Assembly (NCBI GenBank): GCA_903919535.1
Contig: CAIXIP010000101.1
Location: forward strand, 1 to 35,008
DNA length: 35,008 nt
Direction: 5' to 3'
Origin: an uncultured Bacteroidota bacterium
GTDB lineage: Bacteria > Bacteroidota > Bacteroidia > 2-12-FULL-35-15
Shown here: piece by piece, positions 4,051 to 35,008 of the stretch
Layout of the letters: each line of letters starts with the position of its first letter
How positions within the stretch are numbered: the stretch's first letter is position 1
Notes under the pieces: model-generated
Told to the model about the DNA's origin: nothing
Database searches by the model: none
Seen by the model: the letters and a program-made list of their open reading frames with translations, nothing else
Made by a program: the position numbers and the translations under genes

Positions 4051-4078
4051 AAAAGGCTTCGCAATTGCGAAGCCTTTT
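4051..4078 (-). terminator. Intrinsic terminator of the nuo operon
   Basis: A perfect 28-bp palindrome with arms AAAAGGCTTCGCAA and TTGCGAAGCCTTTT. It has a GC-rich core and is flanked by A/T runs, so minus-strand RNA would have a hairpin followed by a U tract. It lies 20 bp past the nuoN stop and separates nuo from the TPR regulator. Confidence 0.88.
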
Positions 4079-4098
4079 ATTTTTTATTCTATTGTTTA

Positions 4099-5469
4099 CT
4101 ATAATAATCCGATAAGATAATCAGGGAACAATCCGAGAGCGAGGATTAATATTGCAACAAGTGCCAATAATAATTTATGATTTGTTTGAACTTCAATTTC
4201 TTCGCCTTTTCCTTCTTTGAAATACATGGCAATGATTATTTTAAAATAATAATACACACCTACCAAAGATGCGATAATTGCTACCATCACCAAGCCTGCA
4301 TATCCAGCTTGGAATGCTGCAGTGAAAATATAATATTTAGCAAAGAATCCTGCTGTTGGTGGAATACCTGCTAATGAAAGCAATGCAACAGTCATTACAA
4401 ATGCTAAAAAAGGATTTGATTTTCCTAAGCCATTGAACGTATCTGTATTGATAGTATCTTTTGCTTTACTTACAATATTTAAAATGCAGAATGTTCCGAT
4501 AGAACCAATTGAATAAGCAGCAGTATAAAATAAAATAGCGCTGTTCGAATATTTATTTCCAGCTAATAATGCTAATAACATGTATCCGGCATGTGCCACA
4601 CTTGAGTATGCTAACATTCGTTTTGTATTTGTCTGCAACACTGCCGTGATGTTACCAACCAACAATGTTAATGCAGCCATTACCCAAAGAATGTTTACCC
4701 AAGTATTGCTAACGTCAGCAAAAGTTGTAGAGAATAAGCGTAAGAATGCTGCAAAAGCTGCAGTTTTAACAATTGTAGCCATGATTGCTGTAACAACCGT
4801 TGGTGCTCCCTGATAAACGTCCGGTGCCCAAAAGTGAAAAGGTGCAGCTGATACTTTAAATGCTAAACCAATCAACATCAATAAAACTCCTGCATAAAAT
4901 ATTGCAGGAACAGTTGCTTGATGAGATGAAATAAATGTTTTGATTTCTATTAGATCAAAAGAGCCGGTTGATCCGTAGATCAATGCAACACCAAACAATA
5001 AAAACCCTGTGGCAAAGGAGCCCATTATTAAATATTTGAATGCAGCTTCATTTGAAGAAAGGTCAGTTTTATTACTTCCAGCTAAAACATACATGGAAAT
5101 AGAAAGAATTTCGATACCCAAAAACAACATGGTCATATTGGTGTATGAAACCATAATGACAGCACCTACCAAAGCAAATAAGACCAAAGCAAAATGGTCG
5201 GCTTGGCTTGTTTCTTCCTTGAAAAAGCTTTCGGACATTAAGAACCATAAGAATGCAATCACTAAAATTACGGATGTAAATGCAACAGCATAATTATCGT
5301 AACGCATCATATTAAAATACAATACATTGGTGTCCCAATCGAAAATATTTAATACAAATGTGGTGATCAATCCTATCAATACTAAAGGATATAATAATTT
5401 CTTAAAGCTGAAAATCTCAGCTAACAATGAAATTACACCTAATGAAGAAAGTAATACTAATGCTTTCAT
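4099..5469 (-). CDS. nuoN: NADH-quinone oxidoreductase subunit N
   Basis: This is an antiporter-like, proton-pumping membrane subunit of complex I, 456 aa and highly hydrophobic, consistent with about 13-14 transmembrane helices. Conserved features are the lysine-bearing segment around AFKVSAAPFHFWAPDVYQGAP, a further Lys in IVKTAAF, and KRMLAYSSVAHAGY. These belong to the proton_antipo_M family, and the position as last gene of the nuo cluster identifies it as NuoN. It follows nuoM after a 90-bp gap, the largest within the operon, and ends 20 bp before the terminator. The length is normal for the family. Confidence 0.96.
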   Translation of the reverse strand: MKALVLLSSLGVISLLAEIFSFKKLLYPLVLIGLITTFVLNIFDWDTNVLYFNMMRYDNYAVAFTSVILVIAFLWFLMSESFFKEETSQADHFALVLFALVGAVIMVSYTNMTMLFLGIEILSISMYVLAGSNKTDLSSNEAAFKYLIMGSFATGFLLFGVALIYGSTGSFDLIEIKTFISSHQATVPAIFYAGVLLMLIGLAFKVSAAPFHFWAPDVYQGAPTVVTAIMATIVKTAAFAAFLRLFSTTFADVSNTWVNILWVMAALTLLVGNITAVLQTNTKRMLAYSSVAHAGYMLLALLAGNKYSNSAILFYTAAYSIGSIGTFCILNIVSKAKDTINTDTFNGLGKSNPFLAFVMTVALLSLAGIPPTAGFFAKYYIFTAAFQAGYAGLVMVAIIASLVGVYYYFKIIIAMYFKEGKGEEIEVQTNHKLLLALVAILILALGLFPDYLIGLL

Positions 5470-29942: not shown

Positions 29943-30022
29943 TTTGCAAAGGTAATAAAAAAGGTATTCTTCATAGAGCTAAGAAATATCCGTTTACGTG
30001 TTATTAATGTTTGCAAAAAAAT

Positions 30023-30049
30023 AGGCGAACACCTTTACGATGATCGCCT
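30023..30049. terminator. Terminator after the SBBP propeller gene, possibly bidirectional
   Basis: Arms AGGCGA (30023-30028) and TCGCCT (30044-30049) with a 15-nt loop, with an A run on the left and seven T on the right. On the minus strand a T run follows the hairpin, 28 bp past the stop at 30077; on the plus strand a T run also follows. It separates the surface-protein gene from the kinase gene. Confidence 0.75.
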
Positions 30050-30076
30050 GTTTTTTTAAATAATTTCAACTATGTA

Positions 30077-31774
30077 TCAACTCTTTATAAAAATTGTTTT
30101 GTATACTGTTCCAGAATTAATAATCTCTAAAAAATAAATTCCGGTGGCGTGCTCTGAAACATCGAAAGAAAAATTGCTTCCATTTAAATTCCTTTTTTCA
30201 AAAATTGTTTGTCCGATACTATTGACCAACCTTATGTTTGCATTTGTTAATTGACTATCGAAAATCAAATTGATTTGATCATTTGCCGGGTTAGGAAAAA
30301 GGTGAAGAGCAACTGAAATATTGTTTTCGGAAATGTTTGTTGTTAACCCTTGATTCATCTTATGAATAAATGCATCTGTGCTGCCTGCAGAAATGAGGTT
30401 GCTTGTGTTTACGCTTGGATCAAAATCCCCTGTGCCTGAGAAATAACCGGCTGTATAAATTTTATTGGAAGCATCAATTTTAATGGAAGTAGCATAATCA
30501 TTTAATGTTCCACCAAACGATTTTGCCCAAACAAAACTGCCAGAAGGATCTAATTTGCATATAAAAACATCATCGCCTCCCGCTGAAGTCAGGTTAGTGG
30601 TGTTTAAATTTGGGTCAAAATCAACAGTACCATTAAATGATCCTGCGATATATAAATTAGAAGAAGCGTCCATTGTAATAGATTTTGCTTCGTCATAGGA
30701 AGTGCTTCCAATTTGTTTTACCCAAACAAAATTTCCTGAAGCATCTAGTTTGGAGATAAAAAAATCATCTTGCCCTGCAGAGGTAAGATTGTTTGTGTTT
30801 GTGCTTGGATCGAAATCAGCTGTGCCATAAAAAAATCCGGTTGTAAAAACATTTCCTGTTGCATCTACTGCAATTGATAATCCATAATCGGCACTAGTTC
30901 CACCGAATGATTTTGCCCATAAAAAATTTCCTGATGCATCTAATTTTGAAACAAAAATATCTTCCACGCCCGCTGAAGTCAAATTTGCGGTGTTGGTACT
31001 TGGATCAAAATCAGACGTGCCAAGAAAGTATCCTGTTACATATATATTGCCTGTAGCATCTACAGTTATAGCTTTTCCGGCATCAAGGCCAACTCCGCCC
31101 ATTTGTTTTACCCAAACAAAATTGCCCGCAGCATCTAGTTTGGAAATAAAAATATCTGTACTTCCAAGTGGTGTGAGTGTTGCAGTATTTGCACCCGGGT
31201 CAAAGTCGGTTGCGCTATTGAAAGAGCCAACTGTATATATATTTCCAAAATCGTCAACTTTAATAGATGTGCAAGATTCATCACTTGCTCCATCGAATTT
31301 TTTTGCCCAACCAAAATTACCGGCCGCGTCAAATTTTGCAATGAAAACATCAAAACTTCCTGTTGGTGTTAGATTGAAAGTGTTTGCCCCTGGGTCAAAA
31401 TCTGCAACACCTTTAAAATATCCGGTAACATATACATTACTGTATTTGTCAAGTGTTAAAGCAAAGCCGTAATCAGAAGCTATTCCGCCAATTCTTTTTG
31501 CCCAAACAAAGTTCCCTGAAGCATCTACTTTTGAAATAAAAATATCGCTAAGGCCTGCCGATACAAGATTATATGTGTTTGCGCCCGGATCGAAATCAAC
31601 AGTCCCTTGAAAAAATCCGGTTGTATAAACATTGCCTGCGCTATCAGCAGCAATGGAATAAGCATAATCTGTACTTGTCCCTCCAAATTGTTTTGCCCAT
31701 TCATAGGTAGGGTTTTGGGCCAATAGTATATTAGAAAGAATAGCAATAAAAATAGTAATTGATGTTTTTTTCAT
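30077..31774 (-). CDS. Seven-repeat SBBP beta-propeller protein with T9SS type A sorting domain
   Basis: A 565-aa secreted protein. A signal peptide (to about residue 20, ILLAQ) is followed by seven tandem repeats of about 65 residues, each with W(A/V)K-x-(F/I)GG, then GNVYTTGFF, then DFDP-x-x-NT, then DIFISKLDASGNF. This matches the SBBP (beta-propeller) repeat family and gives the right number for one seven-bladed propeller. The conserved Asp-rich DFDP turn could bind a metal, which is inference. The C-terminal ~80 residues (FPNPANDQ, ending in IFIKS) form a T9SS type A sorting domain. The gene lies 214 bp downstream of the 31989-34688 gene, with its own terminator at 30023-30049. Confidence 0.91.
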   Translation of the reverse strand: MKKTSITIFIAILSNILLAQNPTYEWAKQFGGTSTDYAYSIAADSAGNVYTTGFFQGTVDFDPGANTYNLVSAGLSDIFISKVDASGNFVWAKRIGGIASDYGFALTLDKYSNVYVTGYFKGVADFDPGANTFNLTPTGSFDVFIAKFDAAGNFGWAKKFDGASDESCTSIKVDDFGNIYTVGSFNSATDFDPGANTATLTPLGSTDIFISKLDAAGNFVWVKQMGGVGLDAGKAITVDATGNIYVTGYFLGTSDFDPSTNTANLTSAGVEDIFVSKLDASGNFLWAKSFGGTSADYGLSIAVDATGNVFTTGFFYGTADFDPSTNTNNLTSAGQDDFFISKLDASGNFVWVKQIGSTSYDEAKSITMDASSNLYIAGSFNGTVDFDPNLNTTNLTSAGGDDVFICKLDPSGSFVWAKSFGGTLNDYATSIKIDASNKIYTAGYFSGTGDFDPSVNTSNLISAGSTDAFIHKMNQGLTTNISENNISVALHLFPNPANDQINLIFDSQLTNANIRLVNSIGQTIFEKRNLNGSNFSFDVSEHATGIYFLEIINSGTVYKTIFIKS

Positions 31775-31988: not shown

Positions 31989-34688
31989 TTATTGTTTAAT
32001 GAATTTTATTGGTTTGATTTCAATTGAAGGAAATGAGACAAAATAAACTCCTTTAGAAAGTTGCTCTATGTTTAATTTTGTTTCACTACTTATTGAAATT
32101 TCTTTAGATATCACCACTTGGCCAATTAAATCTGTAACTACTATTGTTGTTATGTCCCTTAGGTCTTGGAAAGCAATGGTGAGTTCATTTTTTGCAGGAT
32201 TTGGACTTAAACTAAAGGATAATGTATTTTCTTCATCACATCTGACCGCAACCAAATCTGATATTACAGATGTTCCATCATAATCAGTTTGGCGTAATCG
32301 GTAATAAAATATAGCCGTTTCGGGATTGTGATCAACAAATAAATAATTGAGTACTTTACTTGAATTACCCGAAGCGGAAACGGTGCCAATGTTTTCAAAA
32401 TCGCTACCATCTATAGTGCGTTCAATTGTAAAATAATTATTATTTTTTTCAGAAGCTGTAGCCCAGGTAATATCTACTTTACCGTTTTTGCATTCTGCAT
32501 TAAATTTTAAAAGTTCAATAGGAAGAATATTTGTATGAGTTTTAGAGCCAAAAGTAAAAGGTGAAAAAGAGGTAACATAATTTTGTGATGAAATAGAACC
32601 ACTGCTTGTTCCCAAGCAACTGCCGGTTACAGAGCCTCCAGCAGTATTCCAATTCTCCCATGCACTCCCATTATACCTGCTAACACATAAATCGCCAGTT
32701 GTAGGAGCTCCGCAGCTTGAAATAACACTTGCTGTAGCATCTTCCCAAAACAATGTTACCGTTGCATTTGCTGCTCCCGAAGTTCTTGTTAACATCCAAT
32801 ATTCCAGATTGCTAACATTTGAAAGAACGGGGGTAGGAGCTATTGCCATACTTGTTGTATTACTATAAGCTGATCGAATATATCTAGCCTCAAATTCGTC
32901 AGTAGTGCTTGTTGTTTGAATATTTGCTCCAATTCTTCTCCAATAGGTTCCATTGCCTGTAGGGAAATTAAATTGTGTTGCTGCTATAAATCCTGTTTTA
33001 CGCACATAACCATCAACATAACTAGATGCTGAACCACCTGCAGGAGAAACTGAGGCCCCATTTTTTATTCTTATGTATGGCGCTATTCCTGCTGTAGTGC
33101 CTGAGTAAATTATACCTGAAGTTAATGTTAAAGTGGAGATTACATCATCATAACACGAACTTAAGGTAATGCCACCAAAGGTGTTATTAATAGTAAGGTT
33201 ATTGAAGCTAGTAACTGTAGCTGTTCCGCCAATTATTTGGTTGCTTGATCCGATAAACGAAACGGTATTGCTACCACCTGCAAAACCATTAGTGCTTGCT
33301 GCTCTGTTGTTTGTCCAATTATGTGTTACAGAGTTGTTCCCTAATGCAGTTTTAGTTCCAGAAGTACCAGCCAATGTAATGTTGTAAAAAGTAGCCGGAA
33401 TAATTTCCTGATTACCATTACCATTATAACTCACAGTGCCATAAAAAGTAGGTGTTCCAAATCCTGTAAAACATTCATCAGAGCTTGCTAAAGCATCTAA
33501 ATATGAGATATTAATGTTATGTGAAGCATTATTACCCATTATTATAGCACCTATAGTTGCTGAACGATAAATACGATGAATGCAATTCAAGGTTAATGCG
33601 TTACCTGATGGATTAGTTAAAGATGTGGCGCCTAAATATATATTCCCTGCTACTGTAACATTTTGAGTGCCAACATTCGTTGCGGTTATTCCTCCTGCTG
33701 TGCTGGGGTTTGTAATTTCTAAATCACCGCCAACTGCTAATATTGTATTGCTTGCATCACCCAAGCTCACCGTGTAAGGACTAATTGTTTTGATAATTAG
33801 TTTATTATATGCCACAGGGTAAACAACTTGATTGCCTACATAATTAAAAGTTGCAGCAGCAAATTGACTAACATGAGAGCCAGTCCATTCTGTGCCGGTA
33901 GCATCATATTCTACTGTTCCACCCTGAGCATTATTCCAGATACACCATGTGTCTGGGGCAATTGAAACTATTATAGAATGTTGTGATGTACCACAAATTT
34001 TCAACTTACCTGCACCAACAAAAAAGGTTCCATTCGCGTTAAGTCCATAGAGGTGACTGCACAAGAATTGCCAGGTTGTTAAATTAAACCCGTTCATTTT
34101 AAAATTTCCATAAATTAATAGAAATCCATGAAACTTTGCATTGGTTGCAAGATTGTAATATCCAGCTCCTCCAGAATAACCAATTTGTATTTCTCCTTTA
34201 GACGCATCACCTGTTGCGCCTACAGTGATTGTGCAGGGTGTTACTGATGTACCTCCAACTAATAATGGATTAAAATACATTGATAAGGAATTGCTGGTAG
34301 GGTTCTGGAATGAACTGTATATTCCATTAATTACAAGATTACCCCAAACATAGAGATTATTAGCACCATTATTCCAAACATAGATGGATGCACTGATATC
34401 AATAGTTAAATTTTTACAATTTGCGTTTCCGGAAGTAGTAGAACAAAGGCAGGGAACTGTTGCGGTGACTCCATTTACTGCTGCAATAACTACATCATCC
34501 GTGTTAGATGGCACTCCTGATGGACTCCAATTAGCAGCCGTAAACCAATCTCCTGCTCCACTTGTTGCAGCCCAGGTTTTTGTTGCAGCAAATCCTGTAT
34601 TTGAAAGGAATAAAAAAGTCAGAGTAATTAAAAGGCTTTTAACATTCTGATTAATCAGTGATAAATAATAATTTTTACTATTCATCAT
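31989..34688 (-). CDS. Large T9SS type A surface protein
   Basis: A secreted protein of 899 aa from the chosen start. The frame is open upstream to a GTG at 34838, but I prefer the ATG pair at 34688/34685 because a normal signal peptide (ending NTGFAAT) then lies at the N-terminus and the added 50 residues would bury it. The mature protein opens with TWAATSGAGDWFTAANWSPSG and DDVVIAA, a start seen in many beta-helical surface proteins. A long Thr/Asn/Gly-rich beta-repeat region with many NITVAGN-like strands follows, then a conserved module near residues 730-815 (LPIELLKFNAEC, ITWATASEKNNNYFTIERT) and a T9SS type A tail (SPNPAKNE, ending FIKQ). The ligand is unknown. A candidate structured RNA lies upstream. 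Confidence 0.88.
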   Translation of the reverse strand: MMNSKNYYLSLINQNVKSLLITLTFLFLSNTGFAATKTWAATSGAGDWFTAANWSPSGVPSNTDDVVIAAVNGVTATVPCLCSTTSGNANCKNLTIDISASIYVWNNGANNLYVWGNLVINGIYSSFQNPTSNSLSMYFNPLLVGGTSVTPCTITVGATGDASKGEIQIGYSGGAGYYNLATNAKFHGFLLIYGNFKMNGFNLTTWQFLCSHLYGLNANGTFFVGAGKLKICGTSQHSIIVSIAPDTWCIWNNAQGGTVEYDATGTEWTGSHVSQFAAATFNYVGNQVVYPVAYNKLIIKTISPYTVSLGDASNTILAVGGDLEITNPSTAGGITATNVGTQNVTVAGNIYLGATSLTNPSGNALTLNCIHRIYRSATIGAIIMGNNASHNINISYLDALASSDECFTGFGTPTFYGTVSYNGNGNQEIIPATFYNITLAGTSGTKTALGNNSVTHNWTNNRAASTNGFAGGSNTVSFIGSSNQIIGGTATVTSFNNLTINNTFGGITLSSCYDDVISTLTLTSGIIYSGTTAGIAPYIRIKNGASVSPAGGSASSYVDGYVRKTGFIAATQFNFPTGNGTYWRRIGANIQTTSTTDEFEARYIRSAYSNTTSMAIAPTPVLSNVSNLEYWMLTRTSGAANATVTLFWEDATASVISSCGAPTTGDLCVSRYNGSAWENWNTAGGSVTGSCLGTSSGSISSQNYVTSFSPFTFGSKTHTNILPIELLKFNAECKNGKVDITWATASEKNNNYFTIERTIDGSDFENIGTVSASGNSSKVLNYLFVDHNPETAIFYYRLRQTDYDGTSVISDLVAVRCDEENTLSFSLSPNPAKNELTIAFQDLRDITTIVVTDLIGQVVISKEISISSETKLNIEQLSKGVYFVSFPSIEIKPIKFIKQ

Positions 34689-35008
34689 ATCAAAATAGTT
34701 ACAAGAATTTTTTTTGTTTTCATATATAGTAATTTTTTTATTTTGAAAAAAAGGATGGGCTTTGTATATAAACCCACATACCAAAATGCTTACCCCAAAA
34801 AAATAATGCATCTGCGCCCATCCATTTGAAACCCTCACTAAAAAATAATCTCTCCAAACTAAATCTTTAGGAAAAGGTTAGGTCAAAATCATAATTGTCC
34901 AAAACCATGTTCAAAAATTATAATACTTTCTTCTTTATAAAAATACGGTAGCGGATTTGTTTTTTTTATCAAAAAAATCATTATTCATAGATAACCAAAA
35001 TGAATATA
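34689..35008. other. Right-end non-coding region
   Basis: 320 bp to the window edge with no credible gene. It contains the structured element at 34746-34826. The rest is AT-rich with poly-A/T runs; I see no clear TAnnTTTG promoter, no tRNA and no terminator other than the one implied by the element. A gene beyond the edge may end or start nearby. Confidence 0.5.
34746..34826 (-). ncRNA. Candidate structured RNA (three-way junction plus T7 tract)
   Basis: On the minus strand, the outer stem is GGATGGGC (34816-34823) with GCCCATCC (34753-34760), extendable by AAA/TTT past one bulge. Inside are two adjacent hairpins: one at 34786-34811 (ATGC/GCAT plus TTA/TAA) and one at 34761-34785 (TTTG/CAAA plus TAT/ATA, one bulge). 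Seven T follow the outer stem (34746-34752 in complement). It matches no riboswitch class that I recognise. It could be a leader attenuator for the downstream surface-protein gene, the 3' end of a small RNA, or a chance fold in AT-rich DNA. Confidence 0.4.

Follow-up and report, generated by a model that had tools for sequence, protein, structure and literature searches.

A Covarying, Multicopy RNA Family, Often Beside T9SS Cargo Genes, as a Candidate Small RNA in a Bacteroidota Lineage

Introduction

Near one end of a contig from an uncultured Bacteroidota bacterium, a compact RNA structure closes with a T tract shortly ahead of a large surface-protein gene, which raises the question of whether it halts transcripts on their way into that gene or marks the end of an RNA in its own right. 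A sequence-only reading had placed a three-way junction at 34746–34826 and suggested either transcription attenuation or the end of a small RNA. The window analyzed here is the whole stretch of DNA (35,008 bases), i.e., the entire contig G000:C101, with G000 denoting its own genome. Because the window is a complete contig, only 120 bases are known 5′ of the RNA unit, which like the gene it precedes lies on the minus strand.

Results

A Two-Hairpin RNA Ending in a Branched Terminator

Folding of positions 34740–34830 gave −25.3 kcal/mol (z −2.8, equaled by 1 of 200 shuffles); comparison with shuffled sequence had been set beforehand as the test on which the proposed structure could fall, and its folding energy was the better one. 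The same region gave a z of −1.7 when folded as DNA, and the plus strand gave −1.6. The predicted fold is a branched terminator hairpin with a U7 tail (34746–34823), in which an 8-bp closing stem (GGATGGGC/GCCCATCC, 34823–34816 with 34760–34753) encloses two more hairpins, arm A (34813–34784) and arm B (34781–34764), and is followed directly on its 3′ side by the T7 tract (34752–34746). The three helices and the T7 tract are thus as first described, with linkers of 2, 2, and 3 nt in the predicted fold rather than 0, 0, and 4 nt. From the T7 tract to the ATG at 34688 of the same-strand surface-protein gene there are 57 nt, in agreement with the roughly 60 nt originally given.

The compact structure is therefore real, but it is not the complete unit. 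Alignment of BLASTN homologs revealed an upstream hairpin that the sequence-only reading had missed, the 5′ hairpin P1 (34830–34879), which is predicted by folding, covaries, and carries the loop motif UUUGGAGAG (34850–34858; exact in 5 of 12 copies). The full conserved element, 34879–34745, is 135 nt long and folds with a z of −3.3, equaled by none of 200 shuffles; matches of two covariance models (R1 and R2, both trained with the window copy) together span 34745–34888. Its layout is a 5′ hairpin with a UU(G/A)GAG-type loop, then a short linker rich in A, and finally an intrinsic terminator that is frequently branched and has a U-rich inner loop.

Twelve Copies in Three Genomes of One Genus

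BLASTN against 59 genomes, own genome included, returned matches spanning 34892–34733 in G016:C46 (82% identity, E 1.7e-31), G016:C43 (two places), G000:C98, and G000:C67. Some match at E ≤1 was present in 57 of the 59 genomes, with nearly all of the matches listed being short and A/T-rich, and weak matches in G046, G034, G004, and G005 were discarded after folding gave no pair of hairpins. Model R1, built from the window copy and these five homologs, was used in whole-genome searches that yielded three further copies on G000:C26 (E 1.9e-6, 2.6e-4, and 1.3e-3), one on G031:C69 (E 5.5e-5), and one on G000:C295 (E 0.019); a fourth G000:C26 copy came from an R1 search of the locus (E 3.9e-4 for 180 kb). 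The family thus comprises 12 copies at eight loci, spread over 3 of the 36 genus genomes searched, with eight copies in G000, three in G016, and one in G031. Those on G000:C26 form a tandem array of four, spaced about 200 bases apart and each with a terminator hairpin.

Identity among the copies ranges from 42 to 95% and fold z from −1.5 to −5.5 (below −1.7 in 11 of 12), and six of the eight loop columns (alignment columns 34–41) are identical in at least 11 of the 12 copies. The G000:C98 copy has just four consecutive Ts after its stem, a weak T tract. The least certain copy is that on G000:C295, which was retained because its loop is exact and both hairpins fit. Model R2 was trained on all 12 copies, so its scores for them are circular.

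At E ≤0.1, R1 gave matches in 6 of the 36 genus genomes. The weakest, in G008, G020, and G030 (E 0.055–0.093), were dropped, and none matched R2 at E 0.05; those in G020 and G030 were also folded. Low-scoring R1 matches on the opposite strand are interpreted as these hairpins seen in mirror image. The window also has a weak model match at 30015–30107 (E 0.065, and 0.67 in another search). A search of the own genome with a pattern of loop plus following stem gave the window and a second place, on C302, the latter with no R2 match. Under stricter filters, no copies were found outside the genus in samples of 395 class and 395 phylum genomes, two samples that overlap; as the candidates scored per genome were limited (87–89 in the genus searches, 8 in the class and phylum searches), weak copies may have escaped.

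Covariation Supports the 5′ Hairpin and the Terminator Stem

Compensatory changes in relatives, for which a covariance-model search had been proposed, were found, and both hairpins covary. In an alignment of the 12 copies that was fitted to the structure and hence biased toward it, and three rows of which are near-identical tandem copies, 83.8% of cells were paired, 19 of 33 pairs had changed on both sides, and the covariation score was 0.315 compared with 0.154 ± 0.018 for shuffles (0 of 500 as high) and at most 0.109 for slid controls. Six sequences aligned without structure gave 7 of 33 double-changed pairs and a score of 0.240 vs. 0.159 ± 0.020, both reached in 0 of 500 shuffles, while further pair types were reached in 13 of 500; slid controls of this alignment had up to five double-changed pairs and scores up to 0.139.

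Helix by helix, double changes affected 7 of 13 pairs of P1 in the 12 copies and 5 of 13 in the six sequences aligned without structure. For the terminator closing helix the corresponding counts were 7 of 8 (91.7% of cells paired) and 2 of 8, and for arm A 3 of 6 and 0 of 6. Covariation thus supports the 5′ hairpin and the terminator stem. It does not extend to the three-way junction as the core of the element: the third helix has letters in only 6 of 12 copies, none of its four pairs is double-changed, and the terminators in the predicted folds of the G000:C26 copies and of G000:C295 are unbranched, which makes the junction a variant. Wobble cells read on the minus strand number 26 GU vs. 11 AC, an excess that favors this strand, and the copies vary in length from 95 to 150 with indels that are out of frame, which disfavors a coding sequence.

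Gene Neighborhoods and the Attenuator, 3′ UTR, and Mobile-Element Readings

The gene downstream of the RNA in the window (31989–34688, minus strand) encodes a T9SS type A cargo protein: its product, run as 31989–34685, matches TIGR04183 with 36.2 bits (cut-off 23) and PF18962 with 43.1 bits (cut-off 27). This bears out the proposal of a large T9SS cargo gene beside the element, and the association recurs, with an adjacent same-strand cargo gene at six of the eight loci. The cargo gene lies downstream of the RNA in the window, at G016:C46, and at G016:C43 (type B), on both sides at G000:C67, and upstream at G000:C26 and G000:C295. The own genome is rich in such genes, with 141 matches to the type A sorting domain when 150 of 207 candidates were scored, 140 of them exceeding the cut-off, and 51 to type B (48 exceeding it), or about 190 T9SS cargo genes in 3.9 Mb. 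Given this number, some of the adjacency is expected to arise by chance.

One way to read these arrangements is that the RNA is an attenuator in a 5′ leader, transcription starting upstream of it and polymerase stopping at the terminator unless a protein or ligand on the 5′ hairpin permits passage. A co-directional gene does follow at six of eight loci, and at the window, G000:C98, and G000:C26 the next start codon is only about 25–60 nt past the terminator, so that a separate promoter would need to lie inside the terminator; the little room left suggests read-through at these three loci. However, G031:C69 and G000:C295 lack any co-directional ORF downstream (of ≥60 aa and ≥50 aa, respectively, up to the contig end in each case), and four attenuators in series at G000:C26 would be odd. 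Inspection of the folds revealed no antiterminator or alternative pairing of the 5′ hairpin with the terminator, and the two hairpins covary as independent units. We therefore regard attenuation as a doubtful account of the family.

The copies on G000:C67, G000:C26, and G000:C295 lie 0–73 nt past the stop codon of a T9SS cargo gene, as would be the case if they belonged to cargo genes as elaborate terminators or 3′ UTR elements, had no trans function, and spread through cargo-gene duplication. Yet the upstream gene is divergent at G000:C98, G016:C46, and G031:C69, where transcription must consequently begin within the intergenic space, and a mere terminator could do without a 5′ hairpin that covaries and whose loop is conserved; this explanation strikes us as improbable. 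Other neighbors include what we take to be methionine synthase at G000:C98 and ParA at G000:C295, and presumably a sigma-54 regulator and a histidine kinase at G031.

The copies in the window and at G016:C46 are syntenic: past the cargo gene, both loci carry a repeat protein that is 81% identical. The two RNAs are 78–82% identical, whereas the cargo proteins between RNA and repeat gene align well only in their C-terminal 224 columns (52%), and the RNA thus seems to have outlasted a change in most of the neighboring cargo gene. This shared position also counts against a small REP- or MITE-like element, mobile or repetitive, that folds by chance, which the scattered copies, patchy distribution, and tandem array might otherwise bring to mind. 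Pairing is kept in the stems despite the drift in sequence among copies, plasmid and phage collections contain no match to the element, and we consider such an origin very unlikely.

Several smaller features of these loci were also noted. The repeat protein of the window (30077–31774, minus strand) is itself T9SS type A and contains six 195-nt repeats in register. Between the terminator and the cargo gene lies a 12-residue ORF (34685–34723, minus strand; peptide MKTKKILVTILI) whose stop overlaps the cargo start codon (ATGA) and which has a counterpart at G016:C46 (peptide MKPNKILITILI; L095 about 4072–4110, plus strand). Judged from these two sequences only, it could be either a leader peptide or what is left of an earlier signal peptide. 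The stretch between the two G016:C43 copies contains a 41-residue ORF that has a lipobox-like LGSC (L096 about 4130–4005, minus strand).

A LytTR Subfamily of Similar Distribution

At two of the eight loci a standalone LytTR gene lies directly downstream of the RNA: at G000:C98, 49 nt away and followed by a large repeat protein that runs off the contig, and at G000:C26, where it starts 30 nt after the last model match ends. At G016:C46 one gene separates the RNA from a LytTR gene further downstream, and no LytTR gene was seen at the remaining five loci. A fourth standalone LytTR gene, on G016:C41 (L155:3113–3517, plus strand), directly precedes a T9SS type A cargo gene, and model searches found no RNA copy near it. 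All four standalone LytTR proteins tested matched PF04397, and they were the top four matches both in the 36 genus genomes and in 295 class genomes, so that the four best members of the subfamily are confined to two RNA-bearing genomes.

The third RNA-bearing genome, G031, lacks a close LytTR relative despite its RNA copy; the best match there is a 251-residue frame. Lower-scoring LytTR genes of similar length occur within the genus in G010, G034 (two), G015, and G004, and in the class in G166 and G047; R1 at E 0.05 found no RNA copy at the LytTR loci of G010, G034 (both), G015, or G004.

A search for shared upstream hexamers identified none that exceeded shuffles. The hexamer GTTCTT is present upstream of 5 of 10 copies and was equaled by 40 of 500 shuffle sets, which makes it at best a candidate LytTR site. 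Gene order suggests that a standalone LytTR protein perhaps controls some of the RNA copies in this lineage.

Promoter and Target Searches

A −33 box is part of the Bacteroidota promoter consensus. In the window, a two-box search for a possible promoter matched a −33-like TTTG (34912–34915, minus strand) and a −7-like TGATTTTG (34884–34891, minus strand), and this TTTG-N20-TGATTTTG match scores 9 of 10 and was equaled by 5 of 200 shuffles; in none of the 11 remaining copies was the best such match equaled by fewer than 65 of 200. A −7-like box lies 5–8 nt 5′ of the hairpin in five of six core copies, not significantly so copy by copy. For comparison, TAnnTTTG appears as the consensus of a Bacteroidota sigma factor (PMC9723704).

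The nine-letter sequence complementary to the loop was found at 41 places, compared with 12 for a reversed control. Inspection of 30 of these loci put 21 antisense to an ORF and 8 in the sense direction within one (2 are both), and showed 3 to be copies of the RNA family itself; two of the 30, which are also antisense, lie ≤150 nt before a short ORF. The excess looks like a codon effect rather than target sites, and the search gave no target-site signal near gene starts.

Comparison with Known RNA Classes

The statement that no known class was evident holds against Rfam 15, with zero matches in the window at gathering score. At E ≤10 over 34500–35008, nothing overlaps the element on its strand; a plus-strand match to RsaOG (34870–34966) touches its 5′ end with an E of 9.9 and 15.4 bits against 50. 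Five motifs known as structured RNAs from the same phylum, 6S-flavo, Flavo-1, Bacteroidales-1, Bacteroides-1, and Bacteroid-trp (PMC2864571), likewise had no match in the window at gathering score or in 34500–35008 at E ≤10. Among the literature matches listed, a search scope that most subscription journals fall outside, there was no account of such an RNA family.

The family is new to Rfam and is nearest in kind to multicopy small RNAs such as LhrC, and within the phylum to Rfp18. LhrC of Listeria monocytogenes comprises several small RNA copies with redundant unpaired motifs and targets a surface-protein mRNA (PMC4132741). The likeness lies in multiple similar copies per genome (eight in G000 and three in G016, but only one in G031) and in a conserved structure that ends in an intrinsic terminator, weak as the T tract is at G000:C98. 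It is a resemblance in kind, and common descent is not claimed: LhrC sites are CU-rich and LhrC expression needs LisRK (PMC4132741), whereas the loops here are purine-rich and U-rich. Rfp18 of Flavobacterium psychrophilum, the deletion of which lowers two metalloprotease mRNAs, is likewise a structured Bacteroidota small RNA, compared here by its published description (PMC9723704).

A second parallel concerns the regulator. In Staphylococcus aureus, AgrA activates the promoter of RNAIII, which regulates secreted factors, and in both systems a LytTR-domain regulator gene adjoins a regulatory RNA (here at G000:C26 and G000:C98); in contrast, AgrA is activated by AgrC (PMC4227749), whereas LytTR stands alone here. 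The RNA described here is also short and multicopy, and for it LytTR control is suggested solely by gene order. A broader proposal is that the two form a module in which the standalone LytTR protein would activate tandem and dispersed sibling RNAs that set the output of T9SS secreted proteins, module and regulator subfamily having spread together in one narrow lineage as an independent counterpart of AgrA–RNAIII. We offer this as a speculative and rather unlikely extension.

Discussion

Two hairpins of this element are under selection, one with a conserved loop and one a terminator. Between the two roles first suggested, the end of a small RNA holds up better, in that the reported structure is the terminator of a conserved RNA that has its own 5′ hairpin and occurs 12 times, including a tandem set of four; attenuation is weakened by the two loci that lack a co-directional ORF. 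Our preferred explanation, to which we assign a probability of roughly 0.57, is that the compact structure forms the 3′ half of a small RNA of about 135 nt, belonging to a lineage-specific multicopy family with its own terminator that acts in trans and is perhaps controlled by LytTR. Four tandem copies with terminators and the two loci that lack a co-directional ORF point to separate short transcripts, which are also favored because the upstream genes diverge at G000:C98, G016:C46, and G031. The attenuation and 3′ UTR readings persist because of the short gaps at three loci and the post-stop position at three, and the mode of action may differ between copies.

If the family does consist of small RNAs, each copy would be a separate transcription unit that stops at its terminator, with the window transcript starting just upstream of 34879 and ending at 34746. 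Once released, the RNA might use its purine-rich and U-rich loops to act in trans on secreted-protein mRNAs, and by analogy with AgrA, which drives the neighboring RNAIII, a LytTR protein could drive some of the copies.

To our knowledge, few Bacteroidota small RNAs have known roles, and we know of little that settles how T9SS cargo genes are chosen for expression. This covarying RNA family, with its ties to T9SS cargo genes and, at some loci, to a LytTR subfamily whose narrow distribution is nearly the same, offers a regulatory candidate that is concrete and can be tested.
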